From positions 17,874 to 81,873 of the forward strand of contig CACWOH010000013.1 in NCBI GenBank assembly GCA_902762435.1: 64,000 nt of DNA, read 5' to 3'. Both the position numbers and the translations under genes were made by a program. Positions 20,884 to 47,900 of the stretch are shown here, piece after piece. The DNA is from an uncultured Bacteroidia bacterium (GTDB lineage Bacteria; Bacteroidota; Bacteroidia; Bacteroidales; UBA932). Below the pieces are notes generated by a model that saw only the letters and a list, made by a program, of their open reading frames with translations, made no database searches and was not told the origin of the DNA. Every line of letters starts with the position of its first letter. Positions within the stretch are counted from its first letter, which is position 1.

Positions 20884-22371
20884 ATGAAATACTACGACAA
20901 ACTCATTTTCGAACTCTCCAAGCCCGGCCGCATCGGCTTCTCCCTTCCCAGACCTGCTGACCGGCAGCAGCTGCCCTTCGGAAACACTGCCACCCTCGGC
21001 ACGTTAAGAGGGGGGACCGCAAGCGAAGCGCAGCGGTGGGGTCCGAAGGACGTTTCCGAAGGGCAGGCTGCTGCTGGCAGCAAAGTATGCAGTAAAGTAT
21101 GGCGGGAGGCTCCGCTGGACCTGCCGGAAGTCAGCGAGGTGGACGTGGTACGCCACTACACGAACCTCAGCCAGATGAACTTCGGCGTCGACACAGGCTT
21201 CTACCCGCTCGGCTCCTGCACGATGAAATACAACCCCAAGATCAACGAAGAGATCGCGGGGATCCCGGGATTCGCCGGCCTGCACCCCCTGCAGCCCAAC
21301 GAAACAGTCAAAGGCGCCTTCGAAGTCCTCGTGGGGATGGACAAGGCCCTCGCCGCCATCACGGGCATGAAGCACTTCACCTTCCTGCCCTGCGCCGGCG
21401 CCCACGGTGAACTCACCGGCCTGATGCTGATGCGCGAATACCACATGAGCCGCGGCGACACGGCCCGCACCAAGGTCATCGTCCCCGACAGCGCCCACGG
21501 CACCAACCCCGCCTCGGCGGCGGTCTGCGGCCTGGACATCGTCGTCGTCAAGTCCAAGGAAGACGGCCTCGTGGACGTCGAAGCCCTCAAGGGCCTGCTC
21601 GGCCCGGACATCGCGGGCATCATGCTCACGAACCCCAACACGCTGGGCCTCTTCGAGCGCGACATCAAGCAGATCGCGGAACTCGTCCACGGCTGCGGCG
21701 GCCTGCTCTACTACGACGGGGCGAACATGAACCCGCTGCTGGGCATGGTCCGTCCCGGCGACATGGGCTTCGACATCATGCACCTGAACCTGCACAAGAC
21801 CTTCTCGACGCCCCACGGCGGCGGCGGTCCCGGCGCGGGTCCGGTCGGCGTGTCCGACAAGGTGCTCCCGTTCCTGCACATCCCGCGCGTGAGCGGCTTC
21901 CACGGCAACTTCGGCATCATCCTGCGCGCCTACGCGTACATCCTGATGCTGGGCCGTGAGCACATCAAACTGGCGGGCAAGTTCGCCACCCTGAGCGCCA
22001 ACTACATCAAGGAATCGCTCAAGGACTGCTACAAGCTGCCCATCCCGTCCGTCTGCAAGCACGAGTTCGTCTTCGACGGTCTGCTGGACGACAACGGCGT
22101 CACCACGCTGGACGTCGCCAAGCGCCTGCTGGACTACGGCTTCCACGCGCCGACCATCTATTTCCCGCTCCTGTTCCACCAGGCCATCATGATCGAGCCC
22201 ACGGAAACCGAGTCGCTCGAGACCCTGGATGCGTTCATCGCCGTGATGCGCAAGATCGCGGAAGAGGCGAAGACGGACCCGGAGTTGCTGCACGGTGCGC
22301 CGCACAACACGCCCATCGGCCGTCCCGACGAGACGACCGCCGCGCGCCAACCGGTCCTGAAATATGAATAA
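20884..22371 (+). CDS. gcvPB: glycine dehydrogenase (decarboxylating) subunit 2, carrying an in-frame repeat insertion
   Basis: PLP-bearing half of the P protein, 495 residues. The PLP lysine is Lys305 in [14 protein letters not shown]; the core [20 protein letters not shown] is intact. Between the N-terminal LP (residue 22) and LPEVSE (residue 80) there are about 57 residues, where a typical GcvPB has about 20. The excess matches a 117-base inverted-repeat element (20961-21077, exactly 39 codons) read in frame, giving the odd sequence [12 protein letters not shown]. The insertion lies in the N-terminal arm before the catalytic core, so activity may survive. The stop overlaps the next gene by eight bases. 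Confidence 0.95.
20961..21077. repeat. 117-bp palindromic element inserted in frame in gcvPB
   Basis: Outer arms CAGCAGCTGCCCTTCGGAAA plus C (20965-20985) and their near-perfect inverse at 21052-21073 (one extra G). The inner module 21010-21040 (31 bases, containing ACCGCAAGCGAAGCGCAGCG) is identical, on the opposite strand, to 47774-47804. The inner module is itself a hairpin (ACCGC/GCGGT). Element length is a multiple of three and has no stop in the gcvPB frame. Confidence 0.8.
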
Positions 22372-34059: not shown

Positions 34060-34168
34060 CAGGCAGGTTGCCGGAGCAAACCGTGCCGCCCGCGGCAATG
34101 AGCGGGAGGGGCCCACGAAGTGGGAGGGACGGAGCGAAGCGAAGGGTTTGCGCAGGCAAGCCTGCCTG
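34060..34168 (+). repeat. REP-like composite repeat between tRNA-Phe and EamA gene
   Basis: Contains the module at 34060-34083, identical to 47901-47924 on the opposite strand, then AGCGAAGCG-plus-AAGGGTTTGCG and the palindrome GCAGGCAAGCCTGC (34151-34168 region). Related modules occur near 47.6-47.9 kb. Also contains a short palindrome CCCGCGG...GCGGG. No ORF. Confidence 0.75.
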
Positions 34169-47585: not shown

Positions 47586-47605
47586 TCTCCGGGTTACCAA
47601 CAGAC

Positions 47606-47711
47606 GACCAGCTCCGGTCGCAGGCAGGCTTGCCCCTTCAAACCCTTCGGTTGCTTCGCTCCCTCGTCCCACCGCTGCGCTTCGCTTGCAGTCCCACTGC
47701 TCATGAGCCAC
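47606..47711 (-). repeat. tandem repeat unit 1 (106-bp period)
   Basis: GC-rich unit whose next copy starts 106 bases later (GCTCCGGTCGCAGG at 47611 and 47717). It contains GCAGGCAGGCTTGCC, AAACCCTTCGG and ACCGCTGCGCTTCGCTTGC. Confidence 0.8.
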
Positions 47712-47817
47712 AGACGGCTCCGGTCGCAGGCAGGCTTGCCTCCGCAAACCCTTCGGTCGCTTCGCTCCCTCGTCCCACCGCTGCGCTTCGCTTGCGGTCC
47801 CCCCGTTCATGAGCCAC
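47712..47817 (-). repeat. tandem repeat unit 2 (106-bp period)
   Basis: Second copy, about 90% like the first. 47774-47804 is identical to the inner module of the gcvPB element on the other strand. The two units read through in one minus-strand frame (ending at 47502) by chance of their length, but that frame has no coding character. Confidence 0.8.
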
Positions 47818-47900
47818 GGGCGGCTACGGTTTAACCTTCGGTTTTCCTCCTTGCCGGTCGGCATAGAAAGTTAAACTTTCTCTACTCTCCCTGGCTGCGT

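Follow-up and report, generated by a model that had tools for sequence, protein, structure and literature searches.

The window, i.e., the whole stretch of 64,000 nt that was analyzed, carries gcvPB, the gene for glycine dehydrogenase subunit 2, as an unbroken open frame of 495 codons (20884-22371). NCBIfam assigned its product to GcvPB with a score of 673 bits against a cut-off of 441. The initial annotation had judged this protein to be longer than its relatives, and rightly so: the two nearest ones have 455 and 456 amino acids. The inserted residues (about 27 to 66 of 495) lie in an N-terminal linker, and the insert at 20955-21082 is one in-frame copy of a folded repeat found throughout the genus. 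The features of this copy, together with two further copies in the window, are as follows.

20884..22371, plus strand: gcvPB with an in-frame insertion (open reading frame, NCBIfam, alignment with relatives)
20955..20985, plus strand: 5' arm of the gcvPB copy (arm pairing, comparison with empty sites)
20986..21051, plus strand: type A core, the conserved part of the repeat, in the gcvPB copy, about 66 nt (genome matches, covariance model)
20988..21001, plus strand: P2 hairpin, TGCC-[ACCCTC]-GGCA (covariation in alignment A1; pair 20-33 is UA in 22, AU in 11, and GC in 11)
20993..21012, plus strand: pseudoknot of loop CCCTC (20993-20997) with GAGGG (21008-21012) (covariation and linked variants)
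21016..21037, plus strand: P3 stem, ACCGC / GCGGT (fold of the gcvPB copy, A1 covariation)
21041..21051, plus strand: P4 hairpin, GTCC / GGAC (fold of the gcvPB copy, A1 covariation)
21052..21082, plus strand: 3' arm of the gcvPB copy, the 5' arm region copied in inverted form plus one bulged G
34065..34161, plus strand: second copy in the window, with the loop variant CCCGC / GCGGG, in no confirmed gene (model E value, 8.6e-14)
47744..47844, minus strand: third copy in the window, with the variant CCCGT / ACGGG, holding a 31-base module at 47774-47804 (model E value, 2.2e-8)

The gcvPB insert and the fold of the repeat core

The arms of the gcvPB copy pair perfectly over 15 nt (20971-20985 with 21052-21066) and, with a bulged base and mismatches, reach 31 nt per side (20955-20985 and 21052-21082). 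The inverted arms named in the initial annotation are therefore real, and the length of 21 bases given for them was too short. The 117-base element described there is indeed an in-frame repeat in gcvPB; its conserved core, however, is only about 66 nt long, and part of the arms is sequence of the insertion site rather than the repeat's own. The insert had a folding energy of -84.2 kcal/mol, compared with -53.9 kcal/mol in shuffled sequences (z = -6.95), and none of 200 shuffles equaled it. In a structure model of GcvPB of only moderate quality (mean pLDDT of 66.9), the insert was predicted to be coil, with a mean pLDDT of 30 to 41 per block over residues 21 to 70.

A covariance model was made from 45 aligned copies (alignment A1), taken from 92 that passed a filter on length, arms, and diversity. 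It matched the gcvPB copy at 20969-21068 with an E value of 1.8e-18. In A1, 83.4% of the cells pair, compared with 70.1% in shuffles, and changes on both sides occur in 253 cells, compared with 104 in shuffles; neither value was reached in any of 500 shuffles. The pseudoknot pairing was found in 99.6% of the A1 cells, and in 301 of the 313 sequences parsed, the six-base loop of P2 pairs with the G-run that follows it. This pairing comes in five linked variants: CCCTC/GAGGG (255 sequences), CCCGT/ACGGG (38), CCCGC/GCGGG (5), CCCAT/ATGGG (2), and CCCCC/GGGGG (1). The swapped control for the pseudoknot was weak (1130/5000), probably because a neighboring G-run can match too. Judged from the linked variants and the A1 covariation, the core is a conserved covarying fold with a predicted pseudoknot. 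No intron, ribozyme, or other Rfam 15 match was found at the element in 16 loci (9 + 7).

Distribution of the repeat and its copies inside genes

When the 117-nt segment was used as a DNA query, 27 matches were found in the 2.30-Mb source genome, and the covariance model gave 37. These correspond to 36 copies, since two matches, one at the beginning of contig C35 and one at that of C1, were read as halves of one copy, which sits in a pseudouridine synthase; contigs can thus break at such repeats. The 31-base module recurs exactly where the initial annotation had placed it (47774-47804, i.e., C13:65647-65677, minus strand) and, far from being absent elsewhere, is abundant across the genome. In the same region (47600-47850, minus strand), a tandem array of related repeats was seen, whose second unit reached only an E value of 0.5 with the model.

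The covariance model was also run on a panel of 61 draft genomes. Copies were found in 33 of the 37 genomes of the genus, which may be Cryptobacteroides, with up to 49 matches per genome; these counts are lower bounds because stricter filters were used and at most 65 candidates were scored per genome. None of the 24 genomes from other families of the same order had copies according to this model. A narrower motif was present in at least 120 stretches of public genomes. Among the matches listed for it, all 80 titles were Bacteroidales or Bacteroidia and 27 named a ruminant host; the RUG records are presumably rumen genomes. This motif misses type A copies, including the one in gcvPB (0 matches in the window), and its 0 matches in viral contigs are likewise blind to type A copies.

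In the source genome, 20 of the 36 copies are in frame, inside 19 genes recognized by Pfam. The hosts are those for a SpoU methylase, an XerC/D-like integrase, RibF, RNase R, an RlmI-like protein, a ComEA-like HHH protein, RsmF, BaiN/HI0933, an RluA-like protein, GcvPB, QueH, TldD, PmbA, RecG, YgiQ, DsbD, UvrD, a THUMP-like methyltransferase (two copies), and a glutamate-synthase-like small subunit (truncated copy). Proteins with the repeat look longer than their relatives. One more copy (L312) is inside an open reading frame without a Pfam match, and the remaining 15 are outside any confirmed or open gene. A truncated copy in polA was caught by the DNA query only. Open reading frames beside 12 of these 15 copies (20 frames) were scanned; this added UvrD as an in-frame case, and none of the frames was clearly a gene disrupted by the element. 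A PrmC-like frame ends 38 nt before copy L313 and matches only the first part of the methyltransferase domain, and a 738-amino-acid frame at L319 has no Pfam match. Because broken genes were scanned only in part, the proportion of 20 in frame out of 20 is a count of cases found via open frames rather than of all insertions.

The repeat occurs in genes in both orientations, and the sense and antisense peptides differ. One peptide reading is found in GcvPB, TldD, and BaiN and the other-strand reading in PmbA, while the RecG and THUMP copies are read in different frames; the core is open in about four of the six frames. In public metagenome-assembled genomes (MAGs), 61 of 110 scored copies were inside long open reading frames, compared with 1490 of 2200 random positions; the corresponding values for the other three sets were 16/27, 14/21, and 3/8, compared with 397/540, 279/420, and 90/160, and this statistic takes in spurious frames of GC-rich DNA. 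Pfam domains were found in 13 of 20 MAG frames with a copy, sampled at random from those of the 61 that were up to 950 amino acids long. They included ATP synthase gamma, MraW, and TruB and, again, RibF, BaiN, TldD, and THUMP proteins.

A second, different repeat of about 120 bp (GAGCGAAGCGAAGTCCGC..GCGGACCGGCCGGGCCCGGGAC) was also observed in frame in genes and adjoining copies of the first, at L009 (rsmF), L003 (tldD), and L025 (polA). It has nine matches in the source genome (L365-L373), and its peptide reads KGAPPPVTPxGHKPLSDF..KVPGPAGPL.RTSLRST.

The view of the gcvPB insert as a mobile palindromic repeat that entered without breaking the frame was thus borne out by relatives without the segment and by the abundance of the module. 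Beyond that first reading, the family is genus-wide, with at least 19 other in-frame copies in the genome, a covarying pseudoknotted core, and site-specific arms.

Empty sites and the origin of the arms

An alignment with 25 full-length GcvPB relatives showed that the segment, rather than being conserved in all of them, is absent from 24, including ones that are 89 to 91% identical. The remaining relative, G004, has a copy with different arms in the same linker. A copy is also present in gcvPB of G027, which is on a truncated contig and so is outside the 25. The G004 and G027 copies have an extra hairpin in common and may stem from one single insertion. The arms are nearly perfect in G004 and not so in G027; arms may therefore have been perfected later, or may have been decaying. 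Another insertion point of variable length was noticed near GcvPB residue 335 (columns about 364 to 410 of alignment A2), filled in 9 of the 25 relatives, e.g., L056.

Empty orthologous sites were found in relatives for gcvPB (G008 and G015), PmbA, BaiN, RibF, GltD, and the THUMP methyltransferase. For RecG, RlmI, and RsmF, part of the relatives are empty and others occupied. The RecG site has an antisense copy in the source genome and a sense copy in G015, with three relatives empty, and the RlmI site has copies of opposite orientation in the source genome and G008, again with three relatives empty. Insertion therefore recurs at tolerant linkers. These empty sites in sister species make it testable how repeats enter genes and what proteins tolerate. 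As separate observations, the linker of a SpoU/TrmH-type methyltransferase appears to be occupied in each of six species, by insertions that differ (L219, L230, L235, L236, L237, and L024), and a stretch in RNase R of G008 (L354; CGCGACAGCCAGCCTCTCCAGACTTCCGGCTCC), with the frame kept, may be what is left of an antisense copy after decay.

The two arms of a copy fit each other much better than they fit the arms of other copies. The median complementarity within copies was 39 in the source genome, 41 in G017, 38.5 in G033, and 46 in the MAGs, compared with 16, 14, 14, and 14, respectively, between copies. Cross pairs that reached the median of self pairs numbered 1 of 992, 0 of 650, 0 of 56, and 1 of 3000 in these sets. 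All parsed copies were taken (32, 26, 8, and 132), including those with arm scores under 24 (2/32, 3/26, 0/8, and 6/132), whose removal would favor the self scores. In G017, the mean identity between copies was 0.74 for the core and 0.56 for the arms, close to the random baseline of 0.54. In the source genome, arm identity was 0.65, compared with 0.54 for random 24-mers, and many arms carry GGCAGCAGCC; given this likeness, some of the arm sequence may have come with the element, or target preference may be at work. Single arm positions carry little information; stretches that are G-rich or pyrimidine-rich are weak. In the 3' arm, a supernumerary base, a G when read on the element strand, was located 14 to 17 nt from the inner end in 42 instances over 164 copies (those of the 189 parsed copies with an arm score of 32 or more); it is not constant, because 77 of the 164 have no arm gap at all.

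Comparison with element-free orthologs shows which arm is older. In gcvPB, part of the 5' arm (GCAGCTGCCC) is clearly present in G008 and G015, where the 3' arm is absent. The case of UvrA in G027 is also clear: its 5' arm, 12 to 13 nt coding for SSRF, is old and kept in G023, and with changes this flank is also found in G008 and the source genome, while its reverse copy is confined to the opposite side of the insert. BaiN, equally clear, has the opposite polarity, with the 3' arm being the old host side. For FADox of G008, the evidence is moderate (old 5' arm; the flank coding for VVAIS kept in G011, with 9 nt at the DNA level), and for PmbA, RecG of G015, and TrmB of G008, an old 5' arm is weakly indicated by a few bases each. 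The 5' arm is thus the old one at six of the seven readable sites (two clear, one moderate, and three weak) and the 3' arm at one clear site. In automatic alignments, the copied arms also gave matches, though weaker ones (gcvPB right arm, 18 to 21, compared with 36 to 50 for the left arm; UvrA left, 28 to 35, compared with 52 to 63 for the right), as is expected of palindromes. These few sites, three of them clear, suggest a polarity of old and copied arms.

Proposed insertion route, alternatives, and known systems

Our interpretation is that this is probably a nonautonomous mobile repeat of the whole genus, that its insertion duplicates the flank in inverted form, and that in-frame copies persist as translated linkers. 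The core, roughly 60 to 115 nt, folds (P2 with the pseudoknot, P3, and P4) between complementary GAAACC / GGTTTC ends. Insertion would duplicate about 10 to 40 nt of adjacent DNA in inverted form, so that each new copy would cap a long hairpin, whose 5' arm would mostly be old host sequence and whose 3' arm would be the copy. The old 5' arm at most sites and the additional base in the opposite arm suggest that the element's 3' end folds back and acts as a primer. In this route, single-stranded element DNA would first become attached to the target through the 5' side of the element; the 3'-terminal GGTTTC would then fold back onto GAAACC and be elongated with the 5' flank as template, and finally the elongated end would be sealed to the target's other side. 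Selection would leave the in-frame copies in genes, helped by a core open in most frames and by sites in variable linkers, and the peptide of the insert would be translated as a disordered loop. We only tentatively go as far as a new class of element that inserts by fold-back copying, has hairpin arms made of inverted host duplication (often with an added base in the copied arm), and spreads as translated linkers, a proposal to which we give somewhat less than even credence.

The likeliest enzyme would be a RAYT-type HUH transposase. Weak matches to RAYT-like HUH genes (PF01797), partly under the curated cut-off, as in G016, were found in 27 of the 37 genus genomes, and copy numbers of the repeat were higher in genomes with such a match (P = 0.005; P = 0.011 at a completeness of at least 80%). 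Of the 10 genus genomes without a match, 7 still have copies, including G014 (15 copies) and G001 (10 copies), both incomplete. Of 20 loci with RAYT-like genes, only 1 was flanked by the repeat. Genes of this HUH type are the best candidate for a putative mover. Each genome has several groups of such proteins of about 300 amino acids that weakly match PF01797 (L252-L271). Reverse transcriptase (PF00078) was set aside as a mover, with no match in G004 (41 copies) or G016 (35 copies). No autonomous copy with a gene in P3 turned up when 25 low-scoring copies were searched to the limits of their loci.

An ordinary MITE or palindrome of the Rickettsia type would carry its own arms in each jump, and these would drift with compensatory changes. 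Inner arms in the source genome do have GGCAGC/AGCC motifs in common, arms show weak positional preferences, and a selected stem would give strong covariation too. We nevertheless consider this unlikely, because in G017 the core identity is 0.74 and the arms, near random at 0.56 compared with 0.54, still pair within copies, and because one arm is old host sequence at gcvPB, UvrA, BaiN, and, less clearly, FADox. The terminal repeats are not common to the copies, as seen from the low cross-copy pairing and the arm identity of 0.56 to 0.65 compared with 0.54 at random. No direct duplication of the target site was evident by eye at the UvrA and gcvPB sites. Insertion into the tips of preexisting palindromes would explain, with no copying step, why the arms are complementary and specific to each copy, and the G-rich/pyrimidine-rich pattern could then be a target motif; this is very improbable, since the empty gcvPB, UvrA, and BaiN orthologs have one arm without the other.

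Whether the repeat belongs to a known family, as a REP/REPIN of the RAYT system, is rather doubtful. The PF01797 matches in 27 of 37 genomes, with more copies where they are present, fit such a membership, as does the bulged stem, which E. coli TnpA-REP requires according to the accessible part of PMC8266576. Against this, there is no conserved GTAG head (the letters before P2 vary in A1, with CGTA, CATG, TGTG, ACTG, and others, and GTAG is found in part of the copies only), the core is much longer and pseudoknotted, and many copies are intragenic and not beside RAYT-like genes; instead of being extragenic, 20 of the 36 are in recognized genes. A conserved pseudoknotted RNA-like fold might also belong to an insert that does no harm because it is never translated, being lost from the RNA by self-splicing or in some other way. 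However, removal would not require an open frame, and all 20 confirmed in-gene copies, found via open frames though they were, keep the frame and are stop-free; with no intron or ribozyme match in Rfam at 16 loci, we hold this to be highly unlikely. Finally, the in-frame position in an N-terminal linker would suit a lineage-specific functional extension of GcvPB, an idea that retains next to no probability given that 24 of the 25 relatives lack it, those 89 to 91% identical included, and that the same repeat is in 18 other genes.

The literature search, with most subscription papers outside its reach, returned no report of a mobile hairpin repeat of this kind in Bacteroidales and none of an inverted flank duplication by one. 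If it is a true by-product of insertion, the inverted copy of the flank would be a signature without a counterpart found in the literature searched. Several known systems share parts of this picture. MITEs such as ERIC and BOX are, in the part of PMC10969869 available, nonautonomous, short, dispersed, and sometimes intragenic, and the Bacteroidales repeat resembles them in all of this; unlike them, its terminal inverted repeats are not common to the copies, and no transposase partner was recognized. REP/REPIN sequences with RAYT are folded, too, with an irregularity in the stem (PMC8266576, as far as accessible), and RAYT-like HUH genes are in most panel genomes; the Bacteroidales repeat differs by having no GTAG head, a longer core, an often intragenic location, and a position not flanking RAYT-like genes. 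Nematomorph mitochondria have hairpins inside essential coding genes, as does the Bacteroidales genus, and template switching was proposed there for the formation and maintenance of arms; in the accessible part of the source, these palindromes are apparently without a conserved mobile core (PMC6649704).

The initial annotation had likened the insert to Rickettsia palindromic elements, which is apt in the sense that it works like them. Those elements were reportedly described by Ogata et al. in 2000 and 2002. The accessible sources describe them as presumably selfish palindromes, about 150 bp long, that have inserted with the frame intact into many genes unrelated to each other (PMC10969869, PMC6649704). 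The Bacteroidales repeat is likewise a short palindrome in frame in many unrelated genes, here 19. The differences from the Rickettsia elements as described are a host from another phylum, insertion on either strand and in several reading frames with no single conserved peptide, a pseudoknotted core, and, probably, site-specific arms. Protein-coding palindromes, described in the accessible sources as unusually developed in Rickettsia, are found in a Bacteroidales genus as well, inserted on either strand and in core genes.
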